From positions 1 through 64,000 of the forward strand of contig NZ_VORT01000008.1 in the NCBI RefSeq assembly GCF_007997155.1: a DNA stretch of 64,000 bases. Reading direction: 5' to 3'. Position numbers and translations under genes: made by a program. The notes beneath the pieces are model-generated. The model made no database searches, was not told the DNA's origin, and worked only from the letters and a program-made list of their open reading frames with translations. Below, one piece after another: positions 8,048 to 56,991 of the stretch (position 1 is its first letter; every line of letters begins with the position of its first letter). This stretch comes from Aequorivita antarctica. GTDB lineage: Bacteria > Bacteroidota > Bacteroidia > Flavobacteriales > Flavobacteriaceae.

Positions 8048-9322
8048 ATGGCAGTAGACTTACTACTTGGACTACAATGGGGCGACGAAGGCAAAGGAAA
8101 AATTGTCGATGTCCTGACAAAAAATTATGATATAATAGCGCGTTTTCAAGGCGGTCCAAATGCAGGCCACACCTTGGAATTTGACGGAATAAAACACGTC
8201 TTGCGGACCATTCCTTCAGGAATTTTCCACAAGGATTCCATAAATGTGATTGGAAACGGCGTGGTAATAGACCCTGTGGTTTTCGTGAAAGAGCTGGAAG
8301 GACTGGAAAAATACAATATTGATTATAAGAAAAATTTGATTGTTTCCAGAAAAGCACACGTTATTTTGCCTACACACCGTTTGCTTGATGCTGCTTCGGA
8401 AGCTTCTAAAGGAAAAGCGAAAATCGGTTCCACTTTAAAAGGGATTGGCCCAACCTATATGGACAAAACCGGAAGGAACGGAATCCGTATTGGGGATTTG
8501 GAATTGGAAAACTGGCAAGATAAATACCGCGCTTTAGCAGATAAGCATGAAGCCATGATATCTTTTTACAATGTGGATGTGCAATATGATTTGGCAGATC
8601 TTGAAGCTGAATTTTTCGAAGCAGTTGAAACATTGAAAACGCTAACTTTCATTGATAGCGAAGAATATTTGCACCAAGCACAAAAAGACGGAAAAACCAT
8701 TTTGGCGGAAGGTGCACAAGGTTCATTGTTAGATATTGACTTTGGAACCTATCCATTTGTAACCTCTTCAAATACAACGGCAGCAGGAGCTTGTACAGGC
8801 TTGGGTGTTCCACCGAACAAAGTAAAAGATGTTTTCGGAATTTTTAAAGCATACACAACCCGCGTAGGAAGTGGCCCCTTCCCTACCGAACTTTTTGACG
8901 AAGACGGTGAAAAAATGGCGAGAATAGGAAACGAATTTGGAGCCGTAACCGGTCGCCCAAGACGCTGCGGTTGGTTAGATTTGGTGGCTTTGCGCTATGC
9001 CGTTCAAGTTAACGGAGTTACCCAACTAATAATGATGAAAGCAGATGTTTTGAGTGGTTTTGAAAAATTAAAGGTCTGTACTGCCTATAATTACAAAGGC
9101 AAAACAATTCACCATTTACCGTATAATATTGAAGCTGAAAACGTAACGCCAATCTTCACAGAAATGAAAGGCTGGTATGCCGATTTAACCAAAATGAGCG
9201 AAGCTTCGCAGTTACCAAAGACGTTGAATGATTATATTGATTTCCTTGAAAAGGAATTGGAAGTGCCTATCAAAATAGTTTCTGTGGGACCAGACAGAAA
9301 ACAGACCATTCATCGGGATTAG
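8048..9322 (+). CDS. purA: Adenylosuccinate synthetase
   Basis: 424 aa, normal for PurA, which joins IMP and aspartate with GTP in the first committed step to AMP. The glycine-rich GTP loop LGLQWGDEGKGK is at residues 6-17, followed by GGPNAGHT (about 37-44), IGSTLKGIGPTYMDK, EGAQGSLLDIDFGTYPFVTSS and the C-terminal GPDRKQTI. The last codons, CGG GAT TAG, are already part of a GGGATTA heptamer array, so the final Arg-Asp and the stop appear to be repeat-derived. It is the second gene of a pair with the Fur-like regulator, three bases apart. Confidence 0.96.
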   Translation: MAVDLLLGLQWGDEGKGKIVDVLTKNYDIIARFQGGPNAGHTLEFDGIKHVLRTIPSGIFHKDSINVIGNGVVIDPVVFVKELEGLEKYNIDYKKNLIVSRKAHVILPTHRLLDAASEASKGKAKIGSTLKGIGPTYMDKTGRNGIRIGDLELENWQDKYRALADKHEAMISFYNVDVQYDLADLEAEFFEAVETLKTLTFIDSEEYLHQAQKDGKTILAEGAQGSLLDIDFGTYPFVTSSNTTAAGACTGLGVPPNKVKDVFGIFKAYTTRVGSGPFPTELFDEDGEKMARIGNEFGAVTGRPRRCGWLDLVALRYAVQVNGVTQLIMMKADVLSGFEKLKVCTAYNYKGKTIHHLPYNIEAENVTPIFTEMKGWYADLTKMSEASQLPKTLNDYIDFLEKELEVPIKIVSVGPDRKQTIHRD

Positions 9323-9424
9323 GGATTAGGGATTTGGTCCTTCAACTGTGCTCAGGATGACAAAATCGTGATTTGGGATTTGGGATTTGGGATTTGGGAT
9401 TTGGGATTTGGGATTTGGGATTTT
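9315..9424. repeat. Heptamer array GGGATTA / GGGATTT spanning the purA stop
   Basis: GGGATTA GGGATTA GGGATTT (9315-9335) overlaps the purA stop TAG at 9320-9322. A 34-base interruption contains CCTTCAACTGTGCTCAGG (9339-9356), then seven further GATTTGG units run from 9370 to 9418 with a partial unit to 9424. The whole gap between purA and the next start at 9436 is repeat. On the reverse strand it encodes a meaningless IPNPKSQ repeat. Confidence 0.9.
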
Positions 9425-9435
9425 AAAAATATCAT

Positions 9436-11226
9436 TTGAAAATAAATACGGTATATAGTTTTTATCTTTTTTTTCTTCTCTACTTCGGATATGGAATAAA
9501 TCTTTCCGCACAGGAAAAACAAAAGGTCGATATTCAATCGGGCTATCTGGAATTGCGCCCCGAATTTCCCGATGCCGCCATTTATACCAAGGACGAAGCC
9601 GGACAAGTTTATATCGTTCACGAAGGCGTGGAAATGTGGTGTGACCAAGCGTTTGTTTACTTAAAGAGCAACTTTGTAAAAGCTTACGGTGCGGTTCGAA
9701 TTTCACAAGGCGACACTGTTTCCATGAACAGCAAATACGCTGAATACAACGGAAATACCCAGTTTGCATTCGCCAGTGGCGATGTGGTTTTAACCGAACC
9801 AAAAACCACCCTTCAAACCGATACACTTTACTTCGACAGAATAAAACAACAAGCCTATTACAGAACTGGCGGAACGGTTCGCGACACCGCAAGCGTTTTG
9901 ACCAGTCGTTCCGGTAGATATTTCGCTGAAACTAAAAAATATCAATTTCTTTCCAATGTAAAAATCGTAAACCCAAAATATACTGTCAACAGCAACCAAC
10001 TCGATTTTTACTCTGAAACTGGTGCGGCTTATCTTTACGGACCTTCAACCATTGTGAGTGAAACCAGCACTGTTTACTGTGAACGCGGGTATTACGACAC
10101 ACGGGGAGACACGGGTTATTTCGTAAAAAATTCAAAAGTGGATTACGAAAACCGAACGCTTTATGGCGACAGTATTTACTTTGACCGAAACAAGAGTTTT
10201 GCTTCAGCAACCAACAATATTCGGGTTCTGGACACTATTAATAAAAGTGTAATTCGAGGTCATTATGCCGAAGTTTTCCGTGAAAAAGATTCGGTTTTTA
10301 TAACGAAACGAGCTGTAGCCATTACTGTTCGCGACGGCGACTCCATTTATGTTCACGCCGATACGCTACGGGTAACAGGAAAACCAGACAATAGAATCCT
10401 TAAAGGATTTTATCGCGCGCGACTCTTTAAGCCGGGAAAACTTGGCGACGATCCCACCAGCGGAAAATGTGACTCTATTTACGTAAATGAAAAACGAGGT
10501 ATTACCAAATTACTCCGAAACCCTGTGCTTTGGAGCGGTGAAAACCAAATGATTGGCGATACTATACATCTACTTTCAGACACACTCACAGATAAACTCG
10601 ATACCTTAAAGGTTTTTAACAATGCTTTTTTGGTTCAAAAGGACAGCATGGGTTTCAACCAAGTAAAGGGGGAACGACTAATTGGTTTGTTCACGAATAA
10701 TGAGTTGGACACTGTAAACATTAACAAAAATGCCCAAGTAATTTATTATTCCCGGAACGACAATGAGGAATTAGTGGGTATAAATATTACGGTTTCCAGT
10801 TCTATTCAAATGTATTTGGAAGAACAACAGATTACCGGAATTCGGTTTATAAAAAAGGCAGATGGAAAAGTTTATCCGCCTTCCATGCTGCCTGAAAACG
10901 CACGTATATTGCCCGGTTTTCAATGGCGGGGCGAGGAACGCTTGTATTCTGTTGAAGATTTATTCAAAGGAAAACCTGTGCCCATACTTCCGAAAATAAC
11001 GGGAATTCCTTTACCAAAAGATGAAGGTGAATTTTTTGAGGATATTCCAGTTGATAAAATTCAACTTCCTGAAGAATCCAAACTTAGCCCGAAAGATTTT
11101 CAAAACCGACCCGACGACCCAAAACCGGAAACTTTGGAAAGCGAGGCAAAACGGGATTCTATTAAGAAAACATTGAACGATTCCATTCAAAAAGCGAATG
11201 ATTCCGTCCCGAATAATAATCAATAA
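9436..11226 (+). CDS. OstA/LptA-like periplasmic protein of LPS export
   Basis: 596 aa starting at TTG (9436-9438), which gives a clean signal peptide (MKINTVYSFYLFFLLYFGYG then LSAQ). The body is a long run of beta-strand repeats of the OstA-like type (VYIVHEGVEMWCDQAFVYLK, NFVKAYGAVRISQGDTV, GDVVLTEPKTTLQTDTLYFD), which form the beta-jellyroll slide that carries LPS through the periplasm. It is much longer than E. coli LptA (185 aa), as is usual in Bacteroidota. The last 60 residues are Pro/Glu/Asp rich. LptB is encoded at 45.3 kb. Exact pairing with LptC or LptD is not shown here. Confidence 0.8.
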   Translation: MKINTVYSFYLFFLLYFGYGINLSAQEKQKVDIQSGYLELRPEFPDAAIYTKDEAGQVYIVHEGVEMWCDQAFVYLKSNFVKAYGAVRISQGDTVSMNSKYAEYNGNTQFAFASGDVVLTEPKTTLQTDTLYFDRIKQQAYYRTGGTVRDTASVLTSRSGRYFAETKKYQFLSNVKIVNPKYTVNSNQLDFYSETGAAYLYGPSTIVSETSTVYCERGYYDTRGDTGYFVKNSKVDYENRTLYGDSIYFDRNKSFASATNNIRVLDTINKSVIRGHYAEVFREKDSVFITKRAVAITVRDGDSIYVHADTLRVTGKPDNRILKGFYRARLFKPGKLGDDPTSGKCDSIYVNEKRGITKLLRNPVLWSGENQMIGDTIHLLSDTLTDKLDTLKVFNNAFLVQKDSMGFNQVKGERLIGLFTNNELDTVNINKNAQVIYYSRNDNEELVGINITVSSSIQMYLEEQQITGIRFIKKADGKVYPPSMLPENARILPGFQWRGEERLYSVEDLFKGKPVPILPKITGIPLPKDEGEFFEDIPVDKIQLPEESKLSPKDFQNRPDDPKPETLESEAKRDSIKKTLNDSIQKANDSVPNNNQ

Positions 11227-11247: not shown

Positions 11248-12432
11248 ATGAAGAACGATTTCTACAAATACCAAGCACAAACAACCCCACACCCATTGGC
11301 GTTAGAGATTTCGCACGCCAAAGGGAGTTACGTTTATGACTCTTCAGGGAAAAAGCATCTCGATTTTGTAGCTGGAGTTTCAGCCTGTACACTTGGACAT
11401 TGTCATCCAAAAATTGTTTCAGCAATAAAGAATCAAGCTGAAAAGTATTTGCACGTCATGGTTTATGGCGAATATATTCAAGAACCCGCAGTGGAACTTG
11501 CAAAATTGCTTGCTGAAAATCTTCCGCCGAATTTAAACACAACTTATCTAGTCAATAGTGGAACGGAAGCCATTGAAGGCGCATTAAAGCTCGCCCGTCG
11601 CGCAACTGGAAGAACCCAGCTTTTATACGCAAACAACGCGTACCACGGCAACACTATGGGCTCGATGAGCGTGATGGGTTATGAAGAACGTAAAAACGCT
11701 TTCAAACCTTTAGTGCCGGATTGTTTCCCTGTAAATTTCAATAACGAAGCCGATCTTCAAAAAATAACTAAGGAAACCGCGGCTATAATTTTGGAAACCA
11801 TTCAAGGCGGCGCAGGCTTTATTCAGCCAGAGAATGATTATTTAAAAAAAGTCCGTAAGCGTTGTGACGAAACGGGAACGCTTTTAATCTTGGACGAAAT
11901 ACAACCAGGCTTTGGACGCACTGGAAGACTCTTCGCATTTGAACATTTCGGTATCGTTCCCGATATTTTGGTAATGGGAAAAGGAATGGGCGGCGGACTT
12001 CCTATTGGCGCCTTCACAGCTTCACACGAAGTTATGGGGTTGTTGCAAGACAATCCAAAACTTGGGCACATTACCACTTTTGGAGGAAATCCTGTAATCG
12101 CAGCTGCCGCTTTGGCTACTCTTAAGGAACTGACAGAGACTGATATTATTCAACAAACGCTTCAAAAAGAAAAACTTTTCAGAAAGCTTCTAAAACATCC
12201 ATTGATTAAAGAAGTTCGCGGACAAGGCTTGATGCTTGCTGCAATGTTGGAAACTGCCGAAATCGCTTCCGAAGTAATTCTTGCCTGCAAAGACCGCGGA
12301 TTGATACTTTTTTGGCTGCTTTTTGAAGACCGCGCCATCCGTATTACACCGCCACTTACCATCAGTAATGACGAAATTGCAGAAGGTTGCAAAATATTGC
12401 AAAACGTACTAAATAGAATCAAAAGCAATTAA
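11248..12432 (+). CDS. Class III aminotransferase (acetylornithine/ornithine-type)
   Basis: 394 aa, PLP-dependent fold type I. Visible features are DFVAGVSACTLGHCHP near residue 40, VNSGTEAIEGALKLAR (about 101-116), AYHGNTMGSMSVMG, the pyridine-binding Asp in LLILDEIQPGFGRTG (about 212-226), and the PLP lysine in VMGKGMGGGLPIGAF at about residue 244. It is closest to the ArgD/RocD group. Flavobacteria usually annotate this stand-alone copy only as an aspartate aminotransferase family protein. No arginine genes are adjacent, so the substrate is uncertain. The start lies 21 bases after the OstA-like gene, so the two may be co-transcribed. Confidence 0.88.
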   Translation: MKNDFYKYQAQTTPHPLALEISHAKGSYVYDSSGKKHLDFVAGVSACTLGHCHPKIVSAIKNQAEKYLHVMVYGEYIQEPAVELAKLLAENLPPNLNTTYLVNSGTEAIEGALKLARRATGRTQLLYANNAYHGNTMGSMSVMGYEERKNAFKPLVPDCFPVNFNNEADLQKITKETAAIILETIQGGAGFIQPENDYLKKVRKRCDETGTLLILDEIQPGFGRTGRLFAFEHFGIVPDILVMGKGMGGGLPIGAFTASHEVMGLLQDNPKLGHITTFGGNPVIAAAALATLKELTETDIIQQTLQKEKLFRKLLKHPLIKEVRGQGLMLAAMLETAEIASEVILACKDRGLILFWLLFEDRAIRITPPLTISNDEIAEGCKILQNVLNRIKSN

Positions 12433-12515
12433 TTTCAAGCAAACTCTTTATTAATAGGCAATTACAGCCTATCTTTATGTTGATAAGTCCGTTAACAAGA
12501 AAGACGGCATAACTA

Positions 12516-12545
12516 TTGAACTTATTTTTACATTATTATCTTTAA
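12516..12545 (+). promoter_or_regulatory. Candidate promoter for the TPR gene
   Basis: ATTG at 12516-12519 and TATCTTTA at 12538-12545 are separated by 18 bases, close to the Bacteroidota pattern TTTG-N19-TAnnTTTG with one mismatch in each box. They lie 28 bases before the ATG at 12573. Confidence 0.5.
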
Positions 12546-12572
12546 AATAGAAGAAACCGTTAAACCGTGCGT

Positions 12573-13973
12573 ATGCAATTAAGTTCAAACGAGCATAACA
12601 ACTTCTCCCTTGAAAGATTTGAATCTATGCTGAAAACCAACAGCGTACTTTTTTTCGACTCAGAGGAATTTGAAGAAATAGTGCATCACTACCTTGAAAA
12701 CGGGAAAATAGCACTGGCCAAAAAGGCAACCAAACTGGGGTTGGAACAACATCCTACCTCTACAAGCCTTAAACTTTTTCAAATTGAAATGTACATTTTT
12801 GAAAACCAATTGGACATCGCCGATGAACTTTTGGACGAACTGTACCAATTGGAACAGAGCAACGAGGAAATCTACATTCAAAAAGCAAATATTTTTTCGC
12901 GCCGTGACAAGCACAAAGAAGCCATCACACTTTTGGAGCAGGCATTGGAAATAACCGATGACGAAGCTGACGTACTGTCATTACTTGGAATGGAATATCT
13001 TTTTATGGAAGATTATGAAAACGCCAAGTTTTATTTTATGAAATGTTTGGAAGCCGACGAAGAAGATTATTCCGCTCTTTACAATATTATTTACTGCTTC
13101 GAGTATCTTGACGAATACGAAGCGGCGATAGACTATTTAAACGATTACCTAAACAAAAACCCGTATTGTGAAGTTGCATGGCACCAAGTGGGCAAGCAAT
13201 ATTACGAACTGAAAGATTATAAAAAAGCACTTGCCGCTTTTGATTTTGCTATAATCAGTGACGACCGTTTTATTGGTGCATACCTTGAGAAAGGAAGGGT
13301 TTTGGAGAAAATGAAGAAGTATGCGGAAGCCATTGAAAGCTACTCCGTTACTTTAGGCCTGGATGATCCCACCTCCTATGCATTATTGCGAATTGGGAAA
13401 TGTTACGAAAAACTGGGAAATGCCGAAATGACGCTTCAGTTCTATACAAAATGTGTGGAAGAAGATTCTTTGCTAGATAAGGGTTGGATTTCGATTACCG
13501 ATTTTTATATTAAAAGCAAACAATACCAAAAAGCTCTTTATTATATAGAAAAAGCCATCAACATTGATAGCGAAAATGTATTTTACTGGAAACGTTACGC
13601 CAAAATCAACAATAAGCTGAATCTTTTTGAAGAAGCCGAGGTTGGCTATCGCAAAGCTTTAGAACTTGGAAACTATGAACTGGAATCTTGGTTAACCCGA
13701 GGTGACATTCTCACGAATTTGGGTGAATTTGAAGCAGCAGTGAACAACTTAAACCAAGCTTTGGAGTTTTATCCCGAACACGCTGAAATAGAGTACCGCC
13801 TTTCTGGACTCTATTATTCCTTAAATGAATATGACAAAGGAGCGTTCCACTTAAAAAACGCCCTAAAATCTGAACCCGAATTTTTGATGATAATTGAGGA
13901 GCTATTTCCGCTAGTCTATCAGATGAAAAAGGTTAAAGAAATAATAGTACAGCACAAAAATCCTTCTCTTTAA
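12573..13973 (+). CDS. Tetratricopeptide repeat protein
   Basis: 466 aa made almost wholly of TPR helical pairs, for example AKFYFMKCLEADEEDYSALY, YKKALAAFDFAIISDDRFIG, YQKALYYIEKAINIDSENVF and FEEAEVGYRKALELGNYELE. It has neither signal peptide nor membrane segment, so it is probably a cytoplasmic protein-protein scaffold. The ATG at 12573 is preferred over a GTG six bases upstream. It lies 37 bases before the first DUF368 gene and may be in the same transcript. Partner and pathway cannot be read from the sequence. Confidence 0.88.
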   Translation: MQLSSNEHNNFSLERFESMLKTNSVLFFDSEEFEEIVHHYLENGKIALAKKATKLGLEQHPTSTSLKLFQIEMYIFENQLDIADELLDELYQLEQSNEEIYIQKANIFSRRDKHKEAITLLEQALEITDDEADVLSLLGMEYLFMEDYENAKFYFMKCLEADEEDYSALYNIIYCFEYLDEYEAAIDYLNDYLNKNPYCEVAWHQVGKQYYELKDYKKALAAFDFAIISDDRFIGAYLEKGRVLEKMKKYAEAIESYSVTLGLDDPTSYALLRIGKCYEKLGNAEMTLQFYTKCVEEDSLLDKGWISITDFYIKSKQYQKALYYIEKAINIDSENVFYWKRYAKINNKLNLFEEAEVGYRKALELGNYELESWLTRGDILTNLGEFEAAVNNLNQALEFYPEHAEIEYRLSGLYYSLNEYDKGAFHLKNALKSEPEFLMIIEELFPLVYQMKKVKEIIVQHKNPSL

Positions 13974-21792: not shown

Positions 21793-21814
21793 CTAAATGT
21801 TTATTGTTTAATGA

Positions 21815-22231
21815 TTAATGAATAATCTTCATTAAAAATAATTATCGATTCATGTTTTTTTCAGCAGTAATTCTGGATGCAATGAATATTGAGGTTAATT
21901 CTGCTGATTCCATTAGCAAAGACTCACATTTTTCTTTTTCCAAAAGATTTTCATCTATTAAAAATTCAATCCAAAAATTACTTTCATCTACTTCTTCAAT
22001 TGCTATACTTAGTTTCGCAATAAAACTTTTTTTCGACTGGCCAATACAGGCAGCTCTATAATTTGCGGCAACTGATGTAGCACTTCTAATTAATTGCCCT
22101 TCAATATGACTTCCTAATTTTGTTTTTGGAAGCGAAATGGCCAATTTTACACAACGATGTGCAAATGCTTTTGAACGTACTTTTAAATCCTTCTCCATAG
22201 CTACATATTCTTCATTAAACATTATTCATTA
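21815..22231. mobile_element. Inverted-repeat-bounded insertion carrying the four-helix-bundle gene
   Basis: TAATGAATAAT at 21816-21826 is the exact inverse of ATTATTCATTA at 22221-22231. CTTCATTAAA also occurs in both flanks. The unit of about 417 bases holds a single gene, lies between ruvX and def, and its right edge TTA (22229-22231) is the ruvX stop read on the minus strand. No target duplication was seen. Mobility is inferred from arrangement only. Confidence 0.5.
21842..22222 (-). CDS. Four-helix bundle protein (23S rRNA intervening-sequence protein family)
   Basis: 126 aa, all-helical: MEKDLKVRSKAFAHRCVKLAISLPKT, then GSHIEGQLIRSATSVAANYRAAC, SFIAKLSIAIEEVDESNFWIEFLI and CESLLMESAELTSIFIASRI. 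The LIRSATSVAANYREA-type block is the family signature, first seen in ORFs inside 23S rRNA intervening sequences. Function is unknown. It is bounded by TTAATGAATAAT (21815-21826) and its inverse ATTATTCATTA (22221-22231). The second copy contains both its own start codon and the stop codon of ruvX. It therefore looks like a compact insertion between ruvX and def. Confidence 0.85.
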   Translation of the reverse strand: MFNEEYVAMEKDLKVRSKAFAHRCVKLAISLPKTKLGSHIEGQLIRSATSVAANYRAACIGQSKKSFIAKLSIAIEEVDESNFWIEFLIDENLLEKEKCESLLMESAELTSIFIASRITAEKNMNR

Positions 22232-22639
22232 GCCATAATAAAGGTATTCCTGAAGAATAATTGTTGCACTAATCTCATCCACCAACGCTTTGTTTTGACG
22301 TTGTTTTTTTTTCAATCCGCTGTCAATCATGGTTTGGAAAGCCATTTTACTGGTGTAGCGTTCATCAACTCGCTTCACTTCTAAGTCGGAAAAAACTTTA
22401 TAAAATTTCTTCAAAAATTTCTGAATTTCTATTTCAATGTTGGAATGGGTTCCATCTTTCTGTTTCGGTTCGCCCACTAAAACCAGTTCCACTTTTTCTG
22501 TAGCAATATATTTCTTTAAAAAATCCATCAATTCAGAAGTAGCAACCGTCGTCAAACCTGAAGCAATCAGCTGCAACTCGTCCGTAATGGCAATACCTGT
22601 GCGCTTACTACCGTAATCCAATGCTAAAATTCTTCCCAT
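22229..22639 (-). CDS. ruvX: Putative pre-16S rRNA nuclease / Holliday junction resolvase-like RuvX
   Basis: 136 aa, normal length for YqgF/RuvX. The RNase H-like fold motifs are visible: LALDYGSKRTGIAITD (5-20) with the first acidic residue, ELVLVGEPKQKDGT (about 55-68), VKRVDERYTSKMAF (about 93-106) and ALVDEISATIILQEYL (about 117-132) with the last Asp. In E. coli the homologue processes the 16S rRNA 5' end. The stop TAA forms part of the inverted repeat bounding the four-helix-bundle insertion. Confidence 0.93.
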   Translation of the reverse strand: MGRILALDYGSKRTGIAITDELQLIASGLTTVATSELMDFLKKYIATEKVELVLVGEPKQKDGTHSNIEIEIQKFLKKFYKVFSDLEVKRVDERYTSKMAFQTMIDSGLKKKQRQNKALVDEISATIILQEYLYYG

Positions 22640-35485: not shown

Positions 35486-35526
35486 ATTGTTTAAACGAAT
35501 GTCTTTTGGTTAGCAAAATATAATAT

Positions 35527-35625
35527 TTAACCACAAAGTGCACAAAGTTTTACACAAAGACCACAAAGCCTTTATTTAAATACCTTTGTGAACTTTGTGC
35601 CTTTCTTAGTGAACTTTGTGGTTAA
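35527..35625. repeat. Solo CCACAAAG inverted-repeat element
   Basis: TTAACCACAAAGTGCACAAAG (start 35527) is mirrored by CTTAGTGAACTTTGTGGTTAA ending at 35625, with ACACAAAGACCACAAAG and CTTTGTGAACTTTGTG as inner copies. The unit of 99 bases has no gene. It is a solo relative of the gene-bearing elements at 46068 and 55322. Confidence 0.85.
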
Positions 35626-35648
35626 AAAAACATCAGTTTAAATAGAAA

Positions 35649-35716: not shown

Positions 35717-37134
35717 CATCCTACATATCCGCTTTAAAAAGCCCAATTTTTAGAACTATTTCCAAAGCTTCCGAAAACCTAAACTTGGAAAGCTACGTAA
35801 TTGGAGGTTTTGTTCGTGATTTTATTTTGAAACGCGGCGAAGCGAAAGACATTGATATAGTTGCGGTTGGAAGCGGAATTGATTTAGCTGAAGAAGTTTC
35901 AAGACTCTTGCCAGGAAAACCAAAAGTTTCCGTATTCAAAACCTACGGCACTGCAATGCTGAAAAGTGGTGGTATCGAACTTGAGTTCGTTGGAGCACGA
36001 AAAGAATCCTATTCCGAGGAAAGCCGAAATCCTGCAGTAGAAAATGGCACTTTGGAAGATGATCAAAACCGAAGGGATTTTACAATAAACGCTTTGGCAC
36101 TAAGCCTTAGTAATGAAAATTTTGGAGCGTTGCTCGACCCATTCAACGGTATTGAAGATCTTCAAAAAAAGATAATCCGAACGCCGCTCGATCCAGATAT
36201 TACCTATAGCGACGACCCATTGCGGATGCTTCGCGCCATTCGGTTTGCAACCCAATTGAATTTCATAATTGAAAAGGAATCTTTGGAAGCGATCACTAGG
36301 AATGCTGACCGCATAAAAATTATTTCCAAAGAACGGATTGTTGACGAGCTCAACAAAATATTGCTTTCAGAAGTGCCTTCAAAAGGTTTTTCCCTGCTGC
36401 ATAAAACGGGCTTATTGCCTTTTATTTTACCAGAATTGGTTGCTCTGCAGGGCATTGACGAGATTGAAGGACAGACCCATAAAGACAACTTTTGGCATAC
36501 GCTGGAAGTGGTCGATAATATTTCAAATGCTACAGACGACCTTTGGTTGCGTTGGGCTGCTTTGCTTCACGACATTGGGAAAGCGCCGACAAAAAAGTTT
36601 GATAAAAAACTGGGGTGGACTTTTCACGCACACGAGTTTGTGGGTGCAAAAATGGTTTATAAACTATTCAAACGCTTGAAGATGCCCTTGAACGAAAAGA
36701 TGAAATTCGTCCAAAAAATGGTTATGATGAGCTCGCGTCCTATTGTTTTGGCAAGTGAAGTTACTGATAGCGCCGTAAGGCGTTTGATTTTTGACGCAGG
36801 TGAAAATGTAGAAGATTTAATGACTCTTTGTGAAGCAGATATAACCACTAAAAACCCGAAGAAGTACAAAAAGTATCACTCCAATTTTCAGTTGGTGCGC
36901 GACAAAATAGTAGAAGTGGAAGAACGCGATCAAGTTAGAAACTTTCAGCCTCCAGTAACTGGTGAAGAAATTATGAAGACGTTCAATTTGAAACCTTCAC
37001 GCGAAATAGGCATTATTAAAGACGCCATAAAAGAAGCAATCCTTGAAGGTGAAATTCCAAATGAATACGAAGCCGCGAAGGAATTTATGTTGAAGAAGGG
37101 AGCGGAAATTGGATTAACGATTGCTGATTGCTGA
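35707..37134 (+). CDS. cca: CCA-adding enzyme with HD domain (tRNA nucleotidyltransferase)
   Basis: 475 aa. It builds or repairs the tRNA CCA end. The GTG start is needed, since no ATG occurs before codon 80. The class II nucleotidyltransferase head (about 25-150) has [26 protein letters not shown] with the DxD pair, then [16 protein letters not shown] and [17 protein letters not shown]. An HD domain follows at about 255-370 ([26 protein letters not shown]). The last residues IADC and the stop TGA are encoded by a GATTGCT array. The GTG start lies in an ATTCGTG repeat, so both gene ends are repeat-derived. Confidence 0.93.
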
Positions 37135-37157
37135 TTGCTGATTGCTGATTGCTGATT
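37119..37157 (+). repeat. GATTGCT heptamer array across the cca stop
   Basis: Five perfect GATTGCT units and a partial one run from 37119 to 37157. The cca stop TGA is at 37132-37134, inside the array, so the last four codons and the stop are repeat sequence. Confidence 0.9.
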
Positions 37158-38826: not shown

Positions 38827-38857
38827 GGTTGTCAGTTGTTGGTTGTCGGTTGTCGGT
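38827..38857 (+). repeat. Degenerate GGTTGTC heptamer array
   Basis: GGTTGTC, AGTTGTT, GGTTGTC, GGTTGTC and GGT follow the stop of the preceding gene by three bases. Confidence 0.7.
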
Positions 38858-39980: not shown

Positions 39981-40043
39981 TCAGTGGTCATTGGTCAGTG
40001 GTCAGTGGTCAGTGGTCAGTAATCAGTAATCAGTAATCAGTAA
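39981..40043 (+). repeat. Nine-unit heptamer array TCAGTGG / TCAGTAA
   Basis: Five TCAGTGG units (the second is TCATTGG) are followed by four TCAGTAA units, continuous from 39981 to 40043. It starts two bases after one stop codon and ends three bases before the next ATG (40047). The same unit occurs after tatC (44824), after recQ (minus, 40619 downwards) and after the sugar transferase (minus, 50235 downwards). Confidence 0.95.
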
Positions 40044-40046
40044 TTT

Positions 40047-40587: not shown

Positions 40588-40622
40588 CCCACTGTATACT
40601 GACCCCTGATTACTGACCACTA
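40588..40622 (-). repeat. Degenerate TCAGTGG-type array beginning at the recQ stop
   Basis: Read on minus from the recQ stop TAG (40622-40620): TGG, TCAGTAA, TCAGGGG, TCAGTAT, ACAGTGG, GAG. It has the same unit and orientation relative to its gene as the array at 39981. Confidence 0.75.
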
Positions 40623-43981: not shown

Positions 43982-44823
43982 TGAAGAAAAAAGCCTCCCC
44001 AGAAAAAGAAATGTCCTTTTTGGATCATTTAGAGGAGCTGCGTTGGCACCTTATCCGCTCTACGCTCGCAATATTGGTGTTTGCACTATTAGCATTTATT
44101 TTTAAGGATTTTATTTTTGACACCCTCATTTTTGGGCCTAAACACCCAGATTTCCCAACTTATAGAATGTTCTGCAACATTTCCCGCTCTTTGGGAATGG
44201 ATACTTTCTGTTTCCAGGAAATGCCTTTCCGTATTCAAAGTAGAACAATGGCAGGCCAATTTTCTGCACATATGTGGACCTCTATTTACGCTGGAATTAT
44301 TATTGCCTTCCCTTATATTCTTTATGAATTTTGGAAATTCATTAGCCCAGGTTTAAAGGAAAAGGAGCGCAAAACAAGCCGTGGCTTTATTTTTATTGCA
44401 TCCGTACTTTTCTTTATGGGGGTTTTGTTTGGATATTACCTTATCACCCCGCTTTCCATCAACTTTTTGGGAAATTATCAAGTGAGTAAAGAGGTTTTCA
44501 ACGATTTCGATTTGGACAGTTATATTTCGCTAGTGCGCACTTCGGTATTGGCCTGCGGGATTATATTTGAACTGCCAATCTTGATGTACATATTGACCAA
44601 AATAGGTTTGGTAACGCCAGAAAGCCTTCGCAAATACAGGAAGTTCGCTTTGATAATAGTTTTGGTGCTTTCCGCAATTATTACACCGCCCGATATTGTA
44701 AGTCAGGTTATCGTTGCCATCCCGATACTAATTCTATATGAAATAAGTATTTATATTTCAAAGATTGTGATTAGGAACCAGAAGCGAGAAGAAAGAAAAA
44801 GGAAAAAAGAGAGTGGTCTTTAG
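43981..44823 (+). CDS. tatC: Sec-independent protein translocase TatC
   Basis: 280 aa with six predicted membrane segments. It is the receptor for twin-arginine signal peptides. MSFLDHLEELRWHLIRSTLAIL near the start is the conserved N-terminal block (F-DHL-ELR). LYEFWKFISPGLKEKERK and ILTKIGLVTPESLRKYRKFALIIVLVLSAIITPPDIVSQ are family signatures. An insert after TM1 (PKHPDFPTYRMFCNISRS) is common in Bacteroidota. It overlaps kdsD by one base. The stop TAG is followed immediately by five heptamers. No tatA is seen nearby. Confidence 0.96.
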   Translation: MKKKASPEKEMSFLDHLEELRWHLIRSTLAILVFALLAFIFKDFIFDTLIFGPKHPDFPTYRMFCNISRSLGMDTFCFQEMPFRIQSRTMAGQFSAHMWTSIYAGIIIAFPYILYEFWKFISPGLKEKERKTSRGFIFIASVLFFMGVLFGYYLITPLSINFLGNYQVSKEVFNDFDLDSYISLVRTSVLACGIIFELPILMYILTKIGLVTPESLRKYRKFALIIVLVLSAIITPPDIVSQVIVAIPILILYEISIYISKIVIRNQKREERKRKKESGL

Positions 44824-44858
44824 TCAGTGGTTAGTAGTTAGTAGTTAGTAGTTAGTGA
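44821..44858 (+). repeat. Heptamer array directly after the tatC stop
   Basis: After the stop TAG (44821-44823) come TCAGTGG, three TTAGTAG and TTAGTGA. The unit is a variant of the one at 39981. Confidence 0.9.
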
Positions 44859-45310: not shown

Positions 45311-46051
45311 ATGAAGCTAAAAGCCGAAAATCTAATAAAATCCTATAAAGGCCGTAAGGTTGTAAAAGGTATCACCGTAGAAGTAAATCAAGGGGAAATA
45401 GTTGGTTTACTCGGACCGAATGGCGCGGGAAAAACAACTTCTTTTTATATGATTGTTGGCCTGATTAAACCCAATGGCGGCAAGATTTTTCTGGAAGGCA
45501 CCGAAATCACCAATTACCCGATGTACAAACGCGCACAGCACGGAATTGGCTATTTGGCACAGGAAGCTTCGGTTTTTAGGAAGTTGAGCGTTGAGGACAA
45601 TATTTTGAGCGTCTTACAGCTCACAAAACTTTCCAAAAAAGAACAACGCGCCAAAATGGAATTGCTTATTGAGGAATTTGGTTTGGGGCACATCCGCAAA
45701 AACCGCGGCGATCTTTTGAGCGGTGGGGAAAGACGTAGAACCGAGATTGCACGAGCTTTGGCAACCGATCCACATTTTATTCTTTTGGACGAGCCTTTTG
45801 CAGGAGTTGACCCTGTTGCAGTTGAAGATATTCAGCGCATAGTGGCGCAGCTTAAAAATAAAAATATTGGTATTCTTATTACCGATCACAACGTACAAGA
45901 AACGCTTGCCATTACTGACAGAACTTATTTAATGTTTGAAGGGAGCATTCTTAAACACGGTATTCCCGAAGAACTTGCCGCAGACGAAATGGTTCGGAAA
46001 GTATATCTAGGCCAGAATTTTGAACTTCGGAAAAAGAAGTTGGAATTTTAG
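45311..46051 (+). CDS. lptB: LPS export ABC transporter ATPase LptB
   Basis: 246 aa, the standard LptB length. It powers extraction of LPS from the inner membrane with LptFG. Walker [10 protein letters not shown] (about 37-45), the Q-loop [17 protein letters not shown], signature [16 protein letters not shown] (about 137-152), Walker [15 protein letters not shown] (about 155-168) and the H-loop [10 protein letters not shown] are intact. The [12 protein letters not shown]-loop is typical of LptB. It ends 17 bases before a repeat element. Confidence 0.95.
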
Positions 46052-46067
46052 AAACAACTCGAAATCT

Positions 46068-46593
46068 TTAACCACAAAGGACACAATGGCTTCACAAAGG
46101 ACACAAAGGTTTTAAAATTATAGCTCTCCGTTTATCACTCTTTTAATACCCTGCTTCAGTAGACTTACATTAAAATTGATTAGCAGACCTAATTTAAAAC
46201 CACCAAGTTTCATATATGTAAGGGTTTGTGCTAAATGAACATCGTTTAAAGCTTCCACACTTTTTATTTCGATAACTACTTTATTTTCAACAAGTATATC
46301 AATTCGATAGCCAATCTCTAATTGTACTTCTTCAAATATGAGGGGCATAGGTTTTTGTTTGGCAACTGCCAAACCTTCCTTCATTAGTTTATAAAAAAGA
46401 CATTCTTGGTAAGCAGATTCCAACAATCCAGGACCAAGTGCTTTATGAACTTCCAAAGCACAGCCTATAATCTTATTTGCTATTTGATTTTCAGTCATTA
46501 CAATTAAATTTAACAACCTGATTTAAAACAAATTTAAATGTTCCCGGATCTTTATTTATATACATTGTAACTTCTTAGTGGTCTTTGTGTTTA
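46068..46593. mobile_element. CCACAAAGG inverted-repeat element carrying a GxxExxY gene
   Basis: The left arm starts TTAACCACAAAGGACACAAT (46068), with a second ACAAAGGACACAAAGG (46094-46109). The right arm CTTCTTAGTGGTCTTTGTGTTT (46571-46592) is an imperfect inverse. Between them lies one gene, in the minus direction. Another complete solo copy follows at once (46598-46682). No transposase and no clear target duplication are seen. Confidence 0.65.
46118..46498 (-). CDS. GxxExxY protein (PD-(D/E)XK nuclease-like)
   Basis: 126 aa from the ATG at 46496-46498 (MTENQIANKIIGCALEVHKALGPGLLESAYQECL). The GLLESAY block is the family's GxxExxY signature. The rest, QLEIGYRIDILVENKVVIEIKSVEAL, gives the D...ExK pattern of the PD-(D/E)XK fold (PF13366 type). 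The C-terminus VLINFN-type segment is conserved with the second copy at 55353, which is also 126 aa. No activity has been firmly shown for the family to my knowledge. It lies inside inverted repeats, as the other copy does. Confidence 0.9.
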   Translation of the reverse strand: MTENQIANKIIGCALEVHKALGPGLLESAYQECLFYKLMKEGLAVAKQKPMPLIFEEVQLEIGYRIDILVENKVVIEIKSVEALNDVHLAQTLTYMKLGGFKLGLLINFNVSLLKQGIKRVINGEL

Positions 46594-46597: not shown

Positions 46598-46682
46598 TTA
46601 ACCACAAAGGACACAATGTTTACGCAAAGTTCACGGAGCTTTCTTTGTGCCCATTGTGACTTCTTAGTGTTCTTTGTGTTTA
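46598..46682. repeat. Solo CCACAAAGG element at the 3' end of pssA
   Basis: TTAACCACAAAGGACACAAT (46598) is mirrored by CTTAGTGTTCTTTGTGTTTA ending at 46682. The pssA stop (46664-46666) and its last five codons are inside the right arm. Confidence 0.8.
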
Positions 46683-47413
46683 AAGAAAGACAGCAAGATA
46701 TAAAGTAGGATTATAAAAGGTATTGCCAAAAACTTCAGTAGTACCAGAAGCACAACGCAAAGAATTAAAAACACATAACGGACAGCATTACTCTTAAAAT
46801 CCCAAGTTTTGAATTTTAATGCGAAAAGGGATATTTCGGCATTCAGAAGAATGCAGCTCAATAGGGTCATCCCTATCAAAAACCATTTATTGAGGATTAT
46901 GCTTTCCGCAAATTCAGAATATTGAAACTGTAAAATCAAAGGAAGGCTTAAGATTAACAAAGTATTTGCGGGAGTGGGTAGCCCAATAAAACCAGAAGTC
47001 TGGCGTGTGTCAACATTAAATTTTGCCAAACGGTATGCCGATGCAATCACAATCAGCAAACCAATAAGTGGTAAATAATTTTTAAAACTTACGTTCCATC
47101 CATCCAAAGAAAATGTTTCAGTCAGCGTCTGCATATGCCCGAAATAGGACAAATTCAACATCTGGTACATTATGATACCCGGTGCTACTCCACTGGTAAT
47201 AACATCAGCCAAGGAATCGAGCTGAAGCCCTACTTCGCTTTGCGCTTTCAGTAATCGAGCTGCAAGTCCATCAAAAAAGTCGAAGAAAATTCCAAGGAAA
47301 ACGAAAAAGGAAGCAGTTATTAAATCTCCCGATGTCGCGAAAAGTATAGCCACACAGCCGCAGAGGATATTTAGGGAGGTGATGATGTTTGGGATTTGTT
47401 TTAGCATATTCAT
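46664..47413 (-). CDS. pssA: CDP-diacylglycerol--serine O-phosphatidyltransferase
   Basis: 249 aa. It makes phosphatidylserine, the precursor of phosphatidylethanolamine. The CDP-alcohol phosphotransferase motif is exact: DG-xx-AR-x8-G-xxx-D-xxx-D in FFDGLAARLLKAQSEVGLQL followed by DSLAD (about 47-70). About seven to eight membrane segments follow. The final residues KHKEH and the stop are encoded by an arm of the CCACAAAGG element. The leader (47414-47450) holds a copy of the GGTCTCGACTGCGCTCGA repeat. Confidence 0.92.
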   Translation of the reverse strand: MNMLKQIPNIITSLNILCGCVAILFATSGDLITASFFVFLGIFFDFFDGLAARLLKAQSEVGLQLDSLADVITSGVAPGIIMYQMLNLSYFGHMQTLTETFSLDGWNVSFKNYLPLIGLLIVIASAYRLAKFNVDTRQTSGFIGLPTPANTLLILSLPLILQFQYSEFAESIILNKWFLIGMTLLSCILLNAEISLFALKFKTWDFKSNAVRYVFLILCVVLLVLLKFLAIPFIILLYILLSFFKHKEH

Positions 47414-47421
47414 TTTAATAA

Positions 47422-48630: not shown

Positions 48631-48640
48631 AAGTTGATGG

Positions 48641-48696
48641 GTTGAGGAGTTGAGGAGTTGAGGAGTTGAGGAGTTGAGGAGTTGAGGAGTTGAGGA
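48641..48696 (+). repeat. Octamer array GTTGAGGA x7
   Basis: Seven perfect GTTGAGGA units begin ten bases after the stop of the PorV-like gene. A unit of eight bases distinguishes it from the heptamer arrays. Confidence 0.95.
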
Positions 48697-48730
48697 GAAA
48701 AATACTTGAAGCAATTAATAAAACAAAAAC

Positions 48731-48752
48731 ATTCGTGTATTCGTGGTGAAAA
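48731..48752 (+). repeat. ATTCGTG repeat supplying the DUF4105 gene start
   Basis: ATTCGTGTATTCGTGG at 48731-48746 is identical to 35695-35710, and its GTG at 48743 starts the next gene. Confidence 0.85.
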
Positions 48753-49924
48753 ATTATATCCTCTTACTTCTTTTACTTATAAGCGTTTCTGTAAAAGCAC
48801 AGTTTGTTCCATTATCTGAAACTTCAGAAATAAGCATTTTAACCATTGGTCCGGGAGCAGAGCTATATGATAAGTTCGGGCACAGTGCATTTAGAATTCA
48901 AGACAGTTTGAATGGGGTTGATGTGGTTTTCAATTACGGTAAGTTTGATTTCGATACGCCAAATTTCTATACCAAGTTTGCGCGGGGAAAACTGCTTTAT
49001 GAACTGGGCGTAAGTTATTACCAACCATTCTTTGAAAGTTACGTAGCCCAAAACCGTTGGGTAAAAGAACAAACCTTAAACCTGAGTTATACTGAAAAAC
49101 AAGCTGTTTCAGATTTTCTGTGGAACAATGTTAAGCCCGAAAACAAAAAATACAAATACGATTTCTTTTTTGATAACTGCGCTACCAAAATTCGCGATGT
49201 AATTCAAGAAGTACTGGGTAATAAGCTCGAATTTAAGGAAGACCATCTAAAAGAAGAATATACCTTTCGGCAACTTATACAGCAAAACCTTAAAGCAAAT
49301 AGCTGGGGAAGTTTGGGAATAGACATTGCCCTTGGCGCTGTGATTGATAGAACAGCAAAGCCAATTGAATATCAATTTCTTCCCGAATATGTTTATGAAG
49401 GAGCTGCAAACGCAGTAATAAACAGAAATGGAACTTCGGAAAGTTTGGTGAGACAAACATCCGTTCTTTTTGAAAACAGCCCTACCCCACCAGAAAACGA
49501 TTTCTTTTTGAGTCCGTTATTTGTATTAGGTTTTCTGGGGTTATTAATTGTTTTTATAACCTATAGGGATTTTAAAAGAAAAACCAGAAGTCGCTATTTA
49601 GATACCTTCCTCTTCTTTTTTACTGGTCTGATTGGTATATTGCTTTTATTGCTTTGGTTTGCTACAGACCATACTGCTACAGCTAATAATTACAATTTGT
49701 TATGGGCCTTTCCAATCTCTCTTGTATTGATTATTGCGATTTCAAAAAGAAACGTATCCCCTAAAATGAAACGATATGTTTTGCTTTTACTGCTTCTCTT
49801 AGTTCTTTTAACTATCCATTGGACGACAGGGGTGCAGGTTTTTGCTATTGGATTGTTGCCGCTTTTGATTGCATTGGCAGTGCGCTATATTTATTTACTT
49901 TATTTTATTAGAAAGCAGAATTGA
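48743..49924 (+). CDS. DUF4105 membrane protein (Lnb-type N-terminal periplasmic domain)
   Basis: 393 aa from the GTG at 48743 (or the adjacent GTG at 48746, giving MKNYILLL). Signal peptide/anchor (LLLLLISVSVKAQ), then a periplasmic domain with the cysteine-peptidase-like pair GHSAFRIQDS (His) and FFDNCATKIRDV (Cys), typical of DUF4105. The C-terminal half has about five membrane helices (FLSPLFVLGFLGLLIVFITY and onward). DUF4105 proteins have been proposed as lipoprotein N-acyltransferases (Lnb) in Bacteroides. The same role here is inferred by family only. Confidence 0.8.
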   Translation: MVKNYILLLLLLISVSVKAQFVPLSETSEISILTIGPGAELYDKFGHSAFRIQDSLNGVDVVFNYGKFDFDTPNFYTKFARGKLLYELGVSYYQPFFESYVAQNRWVKEQTLNLSYTEKQAVSDFLWNNVKPENKKYKYDFFFDNCATKIRDVIQEVLGNKLEFKEDHLKEEYTFRQLIQQNLKANSWGSLGIDIALGAVIDRTAKPIEYQFLPEYVYEGAANAVINRNGTSESLVRQTSVLFENSPTPPENDFFLSPLFVLGFLGLLIVFITYRDFKRKTRSRYLDTFLFFFTGLIGILLLLLWFATDHTATANNYNLLWAFPISLVLIIAISKRNVSPKMKRYVLLLLLLLVLLTIHWTTGVQVFAIGLLPLLIALAVRYIYLLYFIRKQN

Positions 49925-50235
49925 CATCCCTCCCAGTTTCTATTTCGACAAGCTCAGCACATCGCCTTTAAAGGGAGGAGATAGATTCTGACTTCCACTC
50001 ATATTTTAATCAGAATTGAAAATGTCTTCTTTAAAGCGAAATTTATTGGAACTCCCTTTAAAATAAGGGGTTTACAATGTTTTTAGGGGGAGAATTAAAG
50101 CAGGATGTAAATTTGTAGGAAAAAAGGGCTGTTTTCTTACATTTTAATGACTTTGCTATGGCTTTGGTATGGCTTTGGTATGGAGTATCTATGGAGGAGG
50201 GCTTTTGGACAAGACACTGGCCACTGAATACTGAA
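49925..50235. other. Gene-free gap of 311 bases with repeat remnants
   Basis: No gene is seen. The gap holds TTTCGACAAGCTCAGCAC (49943-49960), resembling the dispersed TCGAC/GCTCAG repeats, CTTTAAAGGGAG pieces (near 49966 and, inverted, near 50051), and two direct TATGGCTTTGG copies (50157-50180). A heptamer run ends at the sugar transferase stop (50238). It separates the DUF4105 gene from the polysaccharide locus that runs on minus. Confidence 0.6.
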
Positions 50236-50238
50236 TCA
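50214..50238 (-). repeat. Short TCAGTGG-type array at the sugar transferase stop
   Basis: On minus, the stop TGA (50238-50236) is followed by TTCAGTA, TTCAGTG and GCCAGTG. It has the same unit and orientation as the arrays at 39981, 40619 and 44824. Confidence 0.65.
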
Positions 50239-55321: not shown

Positions 55322-55775
55322 TTAACCACAGAGGCACAGAGAGCACAGAGGTTTAGATATAGCCATTTATTATTCTTTTTATTCCGTCGACAACTTTTAC
55401 ACTATTGAAGTTTATTAAAAGTCCAAGCTTAATATCTTTAAGTTTTAAATAAGTTAATATTTGTGCTGTATGAATGGGAGCTAAAACCTCAATAGATTTT
55501 ATTTCAATTATTATACTCTCTTCTACTATCATATCAATTCTATAACCTGCATTCAGTTTTATCCCTTTATAAATTACTGGTAAAGGTACTTGCTGTTTAA
55601 ATTCTAATCCCAATGTTCTCAATTCATGAGCCAAACAGACTTCATAGGTACTTTCCAAAAGCCCAGGACCTAACTGCTTGTGGACCTCAATACACGCTCC
55701 TATAATCTTTGAAGATAATTCATTTTCTGTCATAAAAGTAATATTTATCTGTGTCCTCTGTGCCTCTGTGGTTAA
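55322..55775. mobile_element. CCACAGAGG inverted-repeat element carrying a GxxExxY gene
   Basis: TTAACCACAGAGGCACAGAG (55322-55341) is an exact 20-base inverse of the right arm CTCTGTGCCTCTGTGGTTAA (55756-55775). The unit is 454 bases and contains only the GxxExxY gene, in the same direction as both neighbours. The right edge contributes the stop of the adjacent GT4 (55772-55774). No transposase is present. Confidence 0.8.
55353..55733 (-). CDS. GxxExxY protein (PD-(D/E)XK nuclease-like), second copy
   Basis: 126 aa, same length and layout as the copy at 46118: MTENELSSKIIGACIEVHKQLGPGLLESTYEVCLAHELR with GLLESTY, NAGYRIDMIVEESIIIEIKSIEVL with the D...ExK site, and KLGLLINFNSVKVVDGIKRIINGYI. 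The two proteins are similar but not identical, so the copies are not recent duplicates. The coding region lies between exact 20-base inverted repeats. Family function is unknown to me. Confidence 0.9.
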   Translation of the reverse strand: MTENELSSKIIGACIEVHKQLGPGLLESTYEVCLAHELRTLGLEFKQQVPLPVIYKGIKLNAGYRIDMIVEESIIIEIKSIEVLAPIHTAQILTYLKLKDIKLGLLINFNSVKVVDGIKRIINGYI

Positions 55776-56890
55776 CTTTCATCCTCCTCCTCAATTACTT
55801 CCCTCCTCAAAACCTTCAAATAGGACTTTATCACTTTCTCCCAAGTGAAATCATGCGACCAAGTTTTTGCACCATTGAAATAAGTTTCATAATCGTTCAG
55901 AATTTTTTTCAAAGCTTCAGCTAACTGCTCTGGGTCTTTATTATTTATCAATTTACCCGAGGCTCCGTCTTTTATAGCATCCTCAATTCCACAGCCTATA
56001 GCGCCAATTGCTGGAACTCCCAGTGCATTTGCTTCCAAAATAGCAATTCCAAAGCCCTCGACATCACCGGTTTGGGTAGTTTCGCTCAGCATAACAAAGA
56101 TATCGGCTTCTAGTAGGAGTTCTATTTTCCTATTTTCGGAAACTTTTCCGAAAAAGACAATCGCTTCTTCTACGCCTAGATTTAATGCTAATTTTTCCAA
56201 CTTCTCCATTTCAGTAGGTATCCCAACAATATGATACTTCAAGTCTGGATACTTCTTCAAAAGTAGCGGTAAGGCATTAATTACATTTTGCTGTCCCTTC
56301 CTTTGGGTTACGTTGCCTACGGTTATTAAAACCGGCACGGGTTCGTTCTTATCTTGAGTATCTGCATTAACTTTTAGTTCAAAACCATTAGGAACCACTT
56401 CTACATTTTTTAGCTCCAGATGCTTTACCAAAGTCTTGGTATAATTACTTACAGCTATAATATTATGAAACCGTTTTAAGGAATAATCTGTCAATTTCCG
56501 TAAAATACTATTAGGAAGTTGTACCTCGCTACCGTGAATTATAGCAATAAGTTTTCTTCGGAAGAAAAAAGATAAAAGTGCTCCCAACCAAAGGGAAAAT
56601 TTGCCAGTACAAAGCACTATTTCGTTTTTAGAAACCAAGGAAAAAGCGGTGATAATACGTTTCAAATAACTGAAAAGAATAATACGCTTCCGCGGGATAC
56701 GAATCACTTCAAAAGTAAGGTCCCTATCAAATTTTCTTTCTTCTTCCCCCATTTCTGAACGGGTATCACAGACCAACTGCACTTTAAAACCATTGGCTTG
56801 CAAACCTTTCGCCAGATTATAGGCGTGATTGCCTATACCGCCTGGTTGGGGAGGGAATTCGGAGGTAAGTATGAGAATTTTGGTCATCAA
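55772..56890 (-). CDS. Glycosyltransferase family 4
   Basis: 372 aa, starting MMTKILILTSEFPPQPGGIGNHAYNLAKGLQANGFKVQLV (GGIGNHA is the GT4 N-terminal loop); MTKILIL from the second ATG is equally possible. The C-terminal domain has VLITVGNVTQRKGQQNVINALPLL, YHIVGIPTEMEKLEKLAL, DIFVMLSETTQTGDVEGFGIAILEANALGVPAIGAIGCG (EGFGIAILE motif). The stop TAA lies in the right arm of the GxxExxY element. Confidence 0.88.
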   Translation of the reverse strand: MMTKILILTSEFPPQPGGIGNHAYNLAKGLQANGFKVQLVCDTRSEMGEEERKFDRDLTFEVIRIPRKRIILFSYLKRIITAFSLVSKNEIVLCTGKFSLWLGALLSFFFRRKLIAIIHGSEVQLPNSILRKLTDYSLKRFHNIIAVSNYTKTLVKHLELKNVEVVPNGFELKVNADTQDKNEPVPVLITVGNVTQRKGQQNVINALPLLLKKYPDLKYHIVGIPTEMEKLEKLALNLGVEEAIVFFGKVSENRKIELLLEADIFVMLSETTQTGDVEGFGIAILEANALGVPAIGAIGCGIEDAIKDGASGKLINNKDPEQLAEALKKILNDYETYFNGAKTWSHDFTWEKVIKSYLKVLRREVIEEEDES

Positions 56891-56920
56891 ATTTAGGAAA
56901 TAGATAGCATCATTTTTTTT

Positions 56921-56991
56921 TCACCACAGAGACACAGAGGGCACAGAGTACATAATCTTTTCTTTGTGTTCTCTGTGCCTCCGTGGTTTAA
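56921..56991. repeat. Solo CCACAGAG element at the 3' end of a GT2 gene
   Basis: TCACCACAGAGACACAGAGG (56921) is mirrored by TGTGTTCTCTGTGCCTCCGTGGTTTA ending near 56990. The stop TAA of the GT2 gene to its right (56988-56990) is the edge of this arm. No gene inside. Confidence 0.8.

Follow-up and report, generated by a model that had tools for sequence, protein, structure and literature searches.

Repeats at the stop codons of an Aequorivita-like genome as candidate arms of hairpin cassettes at gene junctions

Why do repeats of seemingly different kinds sit at the 3' ends of many neighbouring genes, where they contain or touch the stop codon? This question is raised by a 64,000-nt stretch of DNA (the window: positions 1-64000 of one contig in a 3.84-Mb Aequorivita-like Flavobacteriaceae genome), for which an original prediction had named nine genes capped by repeats and had proposed, as its first option, insertion directed to stop codons. 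Direct reading combined with tandem-repeat and inverted-repeat scans revealed a repeat at all nine named stops, of varying quality. Many of these stop-side repeats are read here, at a probability of about 60 %, as the arms of compact hairpin cassettes, which usually occupy junctions between genes of the same strand and are likened to the intervening sequences (IVS) of 23S rRNA, placed in mRNA instead.

In the window, the stops of ruvX, pssA and a GT4 gene lie within arms flanking a small gene. Between ruvX and def, this gene (21842..22222, minus strand) belongs to PF05635, the four-helix-bundle family of 23S rRNA intervening sequence proteins (IVP; 23S_rRNA_IVP, E 1.3e-15). The left arm in sense direction (22223..22242, minus strand; inverted-repeat score of 19, weak and within the shuffle range) holds the ruvX stop (22229-22231) and pairs, in the predicted RNA fold, with a right arm (21807..21824, minus strand; arm scan and predicted fold) ahead of the def start (21792). 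Two further cassettes carry genes of PF13366 (PDDEXK_3, GxxExxY). The first of these genes (46118..46516, minus strand; E 1.6e-41) is located between converging pssA and the gene at 45311-46051; its left arm, of CACAAAG type (46643..46686, minus strand; arm pair score of 43), holds the pssA stop (46664-46666), and its right arm (46065..46108, minus strand) is separated by 13 nt from the stop of the converging neighbour. The second gene (55353..55733, minus strand; E 4.1e-44) has a left arm of CACAGAG type (55748..55775, minus strand; arm pair score of 46) holding the GT4 stop (55772-55774) and a right arm (55322..55349, minus strand) that overlaps with the start called for the following gene (55329). 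A CACAGAG hairpin devoid of an open reading frame (ORF; 56922..56990, minus strand; read by eye) ends at the stop of a GT2 gene (56988-56990). The notion of several unrelated kinds of repeats thus proved wrong in part: heptamer-like arms border the four-helix-bundle insertion, and the CACAAAG and CACAGAG repeats are arms around PF13366 genes.

The same anatomy recurs in the genus and in the class. PF05635 matched ten times in the genome itself, in all 28 further genomes of the Aequorivita-like genus used for comparison (317 matches in total, between 5 and 21 per genome) and in 122 of the 149 Bacteroidia genomes searched; PF13366 matched in 26 of the 28 (78 matches). Flanks were searched within 110 nt and scored against mispaired flanks of different loci, with the 95th percentile as cut-off. 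In the genus set (39 PF05635 loci: all ten of the own genome and the 29 best-scoring others out of 317 matches), IVP flanks were inverted with a median score of 31 versus 15 when mispaired, 22/39 loci exceeding the cut-off (p 3e-16); in the class set (29 loci across Bacteroidia, one per genome), the median was 27 versus 15, and 21/29 loci exceeded it (p 2e-11). These p values are nominal, as are those on alleles and on the junctions followed across the genus, since genomes and alleles are related and several genus loci are orthologous sites. IVP flanks also carry a heptad period (period-7 self-match 0.446/0.457 versus 0.319/0.314 in controls), and flanks taken from different cassettes pair no better than those of control ORFs, i.e., the arm sequence is not conserved between copies. 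As the arms pair while their heptamer units vary, the conserved feature is pairing rather than sequence. PF13366 flanks (30 loci out of 78 matches) are likewise inverted (median 24 versus 16, p 1e-6), with only 3/30 above the mispaired 95th percentile because their arm sequence is common to different loci. Ranking 419 small ORFs without regard to family placed ten PF05635 or PF13366 members among the twelve genes with the strongest inverted flanks, five of the ten probably representing one orthologous PF13366 site.

Cassette placement is equally regular. Arm and upstream gene were recognised in 43 of the 68 IVP loci, and in 32 of these (19/27 in the genus, 13/16 in the class) the left arm contains the upstream stop or starts at most 5 nt from it; the criteria for recognising an arm were permissive, and orthologous loci are included in the count. 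Both neighbours lie on the same strand for 20/23 PF05635 or PF13366 genes versus 220/392 controls, and 32/39 IVP genus loci are flanked on either side by same-strand coding genes. The left flank is richer in G+T than the right at 26/39 genus (p 0.002) and 19/29 class IVP loci (p 0.006), compared to 160/395 controls.

Turnover of cassettes became apparent at two junctions followed across the genus. The thiolase junction could be read in 26 of the 28 genomes (one locus lacked the upstream gene, and one genome offered paralogues only). In all 26, a spacer of 75-643 nt begins at the upstream stop, and the protein encoded upstream can be aligned through its final residue. These spacers fall into ten arm types, 13 containing an IVP gene and 13 none. 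Arms from the same genome pair with a median score of 25.5 versus 14 between types (95th percentile 22), the value of 22 being exceeded in 17/26 genomes and by seven of the ten type means. All 13 spacers lacking an ORF fold better than the shuffle mean (mean z -2.3, seven below -2). Between ruvX and def, a gap of merely 3-4 nt was found in 9/27 genomes; the IVP cassette is present in the own genome and in G033, in the latter with the gene split between frames, and G008 retains an 88-nt remnant in which portions of either arm and the 13 C-terminal residues of this IVP survive. In other genomes the junction is filled by heptamers without relation to these, by CAGT chains, by a hairpin rich in CG or by plain spacer DNA.

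According to the proposed model, a cassette would consist of the upstream stop, a left arm, a small gene (PF05635 IVP, PF13366 or none), a right arm and the downstream start. The left arm begins at or beside the upstream stop, its letters often becoming that stop. IVP arms are complementary to each other, with heptamer units that vary from cassette to cassette and, at one site, even from species to species. In the cell, the arms would pair in the transcript as in the IVS of 23S rRNA, the insert being held between two intact coding regions and perhaps cut out by RNase III. Cassettes would be capable of movement, and both arms might be renewed jointly by slippage and by template switching between the quasi-palindromic arms. 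Template switching is an established process at quasi-palindromes. Heptamer arrays that stand alone would represent single arms or remains of cassettes. Targeting of stops would be unnecessary, as arms reaching into the upstream gene could survive if they supply a stop. The broadest version of this model, for which the odds are somewhat below even, is tentative: Bacteroidia may possess mRNA intervening sequences in the form of mobile hairpin cassettes with sequence-free heptad arms, which extend from stop to start within operons, supply the stop, swap arms and cargo at a given site, and whose left arms would account for the stop-capping repeats.

If repeats supply or shift stops, orthologues should tell. 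For 37 of 46 junctions at least six alleles were available (467 alleles; nine junctions were dropped, and GT4 and GT2 are left out of this comparison). The stop is displaced in 20/54 alleles in which it carries a repeat versus 65/413 others (p 5e-4), and the commonest position is kept in 34/54; the predicted shift of stops hence applies to a part of the repeats. True heptamer arrays overlap the stops of purA, cca and tatC. The GGGATTA array of purA (9315..9334, plus strand) includes the stop TAG at 9320-9322. Among 20 relatives, 19 had a match; seven of 11 orthologous alleles, without the array, end at codon 423, one codon earlier than the own gene. The other four end one codon after these seven, three of them with a repeat at the stop and the fourth, in G008, with a repeat 39 nt downstream. 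At cca, where a GATTGCT array (37119..37157, plus strand; tandem scan and orthologue comparison) includes the stop (37132-37134), tails range from 2 to 29 residues among 20 alleles. In alleles lacking the element, the pssA tail mostly has 5-6 residues (range 3-14); where the element is present, it has 5-16. The TAGTTAG array (44821..44856, plus strand) starts from the tatC stop, which is at the modal position in the own genome and shifted in six other array-bearing alleles (18 of 80 returned loci were used, from Aequorivita, two of them placed only as Flavobacteriaceae).

At recQ and the sugar-transferase gene, the tandem-repeat scan called no array at the stop, the nearest call to the latter being an 11-mer at 50147-50183. 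Each of the two stops opens a degenerate chain with CAGT every 7-8 nt (recQ: 40591..40622, minus strand, from TAG at 40620-40622; sugar transferase: 50216..50238, minus strand, stop at 50236-50238), and the stop position is identical with and without the repeat in 20/20 and 14/14 alleles, respectively. The claim that repeats cap all nine stops therefore holds for the presence of a repeat, and not for called arrays at these two genes; likewise, a different stop in the absence of the repeat was found at purA, cca and pssA, and not at recQ, the sugar transferase and the own tatC. Three more arrays adjoin stops of conserved position: GGTTGTC (38827..38857, plus strand; 3 nt 3' of the stop, 20/20 alleles), TCAGTGG/TCAGTAA (39981..40044, plus strand; 2 nt, 20/20; tandem scan and orthologue comparison) and the octamer AGTTGAGG (48632..48697, plus strand; 1 nt, 16/16; tandem scan and orthologue comparison). 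Different heptamers occupy the same stop in different species, most clearly after gene 38308-38823, where many other species have heptamers other than GGTTGTC. Within orthologous junctions, CAGT chains go along with the stop TAG (common odds ratio of 7.5 over nine informative junctions; p 2e-4), so repeats abutting unmoved stops often supply the letters of the stop in place.

Solo arrays may be tied to cassettes by three sequence features: the G008 remnant, arms composed of CAGT/ACTG chains in L245 and L246 that resemble chains standing alone elsewhere, and the polarity of the CAGT family. Counted as doublets, orthologous ones included, sense CAGT prevails 81:14 within 60 nt of stops and ACTG 11:1 near starts, the polarity being reversed beyond 60 nt from starts (2:8); for isolated tetramers, the CAGT:ACTG ratio is 178:165 in the vicinity of stops and 220:174 in that of starts. 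By gene, the bias amounts to 47 versus 15, and to 22 versus 6 in three well-sampled genomes. In same-strand spacers, GT-rich heptamers make up 26/51 of the arrays nearest a stop and 3/33 of those nearest a start. Selection for stop triplets within the units was considered as well; by eye, sense and antisense units of 30 stop-capping arrays contain stops at about the same rate, and this candidate was not relied on.

The position of the arrays was determined in 2.31 Mb of sampled Aequorivita-like DNA (11 genomes and 14 named loci, possibly overlapping in genomes), in which 2127 genes were called with a purpose-made dicodon model whose stops are exact if the gene is right and whose starts may be off. 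Period 7 accounts for 104 of the 139 intergenic arrays of period 5-12 and for 5/23 within genes; five shuffles of the own-genome spacers yielded no period-7 array. In same-strand junctions, 30/84 period-7 arrays overlap the upstream stop or lie at most 5 nt from it, and 8/84 lie at most 5 nt from the next start. The expected number near the upstream stop is 11.2 under a uniform null, 17.8 if the 20 nt immediately ahead of the start are barred and 25.3 if 40 nt are barred (p 0.03). The pile-up of arrays at stops is thus real but mostly due to limited space, and array position alone tells little beyond selection for harmless sites. An earlier own-genome count by tandem-repeat finder alone (9/27 heptamer arrays at most 5 nt from a stop; 1.5 expected, or 3.6 after barring 30 nt) is superseded by this test. 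These numbers speak for a role of selection only, by which repeats would arise or insert anywhere and survive 3' of stops as the sole dispensable DNA in tight same-strand runs, an explanation whose chances fall just short of even. It also agrees with the overlap of 15/84 arrays (13 by at least 2 nt) with the upstream gene and of none with the downstream gene, and with G001, where 0/12 arrays cap a stop. The corresponding counts are 7/17 in the own-genome sample and 7/20 in G009. Selection leaves unexplained the inverted flanks of PF05635 and PF13366 genes, the pairing of IVP arms within but not between cassettes and the strand polarity of CAGT chains, and convergent spacers, despite two stops each, have fewer arrays (7 in 307 junctions versus 84 in 1500 same-strand ones).

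The rival explanations do not exclude one another; any of them might apply to a subset of the repeats. An enzyme placing elements at stop codons would account for left arms starting at the stop at the 32/43 IVP loci and for the frequent TAG upstream of IVP genes (14/35 versus 362/2127, p 0.001) and of CAGT chains (25/47, p 3e-8). Arm letters completing the stop yield the same TAG enrichment without targeting, and no candidate enzyme was found among Y1_Tnp transposases (RAYT, the tyrosine transposases associated with repetitive extragenic palindromes, REP) and reverse transcriptases, other recombinases not having been searched; targeted insertion is accordingly considered quite improbable. RAYT-driven REP movement was rejected, Y1_Tnp being missing from the own genome, as was movement driven by reverse transcriptase, which occurs in only 9/28 genomes and is missing from both genomes with 21 IVP matches; its patchiness among IVP-bearing genomes suggests that it is dispensable. 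Replication slippage would explain heptamer arrays as local microsatellite births favoured by the polymerase footprint, involving no element, with IVP genes merely tolerating such flanks. A bacterial heptamer excess linked to the polymerase footprint has been described (PMC4692102), and most arrays are solo. Slippage gives direct arrays, whereas IVP arms are inverted and complementary, and this explanation appears rather unlikely.

Several observations weigh against the reading as hairpin cassettes. Within 110 nt, no significant inverted flanks were found at 17/39 genus and 8/29 class IVP loci. The fold of the window's own IVP cassette is no better overall than shuffles (z -1.39), its arm score of 19 being low, and the pssA PF13366 cassette sits between converging genes. 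PF13366 arms have no period 7 and are alike between cassettes (CACAGAG/CACAAAG in many copies), as in classical terminal repeats, and PF13366 cassettes may therefore be a different, more classical element. Ordinary spacers exceeded their own 95th percentile in 47/410 same-strand and 19/52 convergent cases, from which a contribution of terminators to the inverted signal follows. Of 101 period-7 arrays, only 9 have an IVP gene at a distance of up to 150 nt, although such DNA represents just 0.7 % of intergenic bases. An inverted partner above the control 95th percentile was detected for 11/83 solo arrays, and significant inversion in 2/25 same-strand spacers with arrays; the idea that all solo arrays are inverted pairs was rejected on these counts. 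GT/AC polarity fails as a general start/stop rule in divergent spacers, where 7/10 arrays near starts are GT-rich. The space-limited pile-up at stops belongs here as well. No insertion with target duplication turned up, the filled and empty ruvX-def sites not having been analysed for duplication. Finally, the ruvX-def IVP carriers (own genome, G033 and G008) are not sisters in the ruvX+def tree, which may reflect transfer or an ancestral cassette that was lost in other lineages.

Further repeats were noticed in the window and at related loci. A GATTTGG array (9370-9423; tandem-repeat scan) lies 3' of the purA-stop array, and the purA heptamers seem to have shifted the beginning of the following gene (window 9423-9450), which, read by eye, seems to start some 30 nt 3' of purA in repeat-free relatives. 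Another hairpin without an ORF, of CACAAAG type (35526..35626, no strand assigned), has arms at 35526-35568 and 35584-35626 that are 79 % complementary. Exact CACAAAGNNCACAAAG sites are locally dense, four of the genome's seven being located in the window. Near pssA, PF13366 matches in two pieces at L021, L022, L027 and L034 (near 11300-13050) appear to be decaying cassettes. A CCTCCCC/GGGGAGG inverted element replaces the IVP cassette of the thiolase junction in L337, L342, L354 and L358, and some relatives have similar C-rich repeats 3' of cca and of gene 48743-49924. Another recurrent feature 3' of stops is a CG-rich hairpin (about GCTCGCGATTTATCGCGTGC), located after ruvX in L288 and L283 and after cca in L021 and L027; in several cases it lies between a CAGT chain and an ATTCGTG repeat, and it may constitute a composite dispersed element. 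Period-11 arrays (CCATAGCAAAG; window 50147-50183) differ from heptamers in that 11/18 reside in convergent spacers, orthologous copies included.

Small palindromes after genes also occur as REP and bacterial interspersed mosaic elements (BIME) with RAYT transposases, from which the present cassettes differ by the own genome's lack of Y1_Tnp. They differ from classical insertion sequences and miniature inverted-repeat transposable elements by the varying arm sequence of IVP copies (PF13366 arms do share sequence in many copies), and from diversity-generating retroelements, to whose Avd protein IVP is related, by the occurrence of reverse transcriptase in 9/28 versus IVP in 28/28 genomes. Heptamers near stops, including those of Aequorivita, and their stops in three frames are already known (PMC4679880, PMC4692102), as are IVS elements. 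TAACTGA heptamers were described for Beggiatoaceae, Cyanobacteria and Bacteroidetes including A. sublithincola; they mostly stand forward before starts, with one set reversed directly 3' of a stop, forward copies put stops in three frames, and 13 sets overlap upstream stops (PMC4679880). The CAGT/ACTG chains, with a variable triplet, resemble this family (tandem TAACTGA reads ACTGATA) and may belong to it; the other heptamer units do not fit. In the portion of PMC4679880 consulted, the repeats are seen as a single heptamer that may act in regulation, and no link is drawn to IVP or inverted arms. In Xanthomonas, GGGAATC repeats are on average 28 nt away from the upstream versus 160 nt from the downstream ORF; like the window repeats, some overlap stops and show strand preference, but they form one G-rich unit, read as G-quadruplex DNA (PMC4692102).

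The closest likeness is to the IVS of 23S rRNA, e.g., of Coxiella: a small PF05635-type gene in a loop closed by stem-forming terminal inverted repeats, excised by RNase III and described as a selfish element (PMC4990558). IVP cassettes share the PF05635-type gene, which PF13366 cassettes do not, and the terminal inverted repeats (above the 95th percentile at the 22/39 and 21/29 loci). In contrast to IVS, they reside in spacers between protein genes (ruvX-def, thiolase) rather than in a 23S rRNA helix, their arms are built of heptamers and start at the stop, and cutting by RNase III is only proposed. Among the open-access papers listed by the literature searches, none was seen to describe IVP genes that are flanked, within protein operons, by inverted heptamer arms. 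Read as cassettes, these loci give the orphan genes for four-helix-bundle 23S rRNA intervening sequence proteins a context, that of a hairpin insert at operon junctions. Gene ends and operon spacers would then be rewritten at almost no protein cost, and two separate literatures, on the intervening sequences of 23S rRNA and on bacterial heptamer repeats, would be connected.

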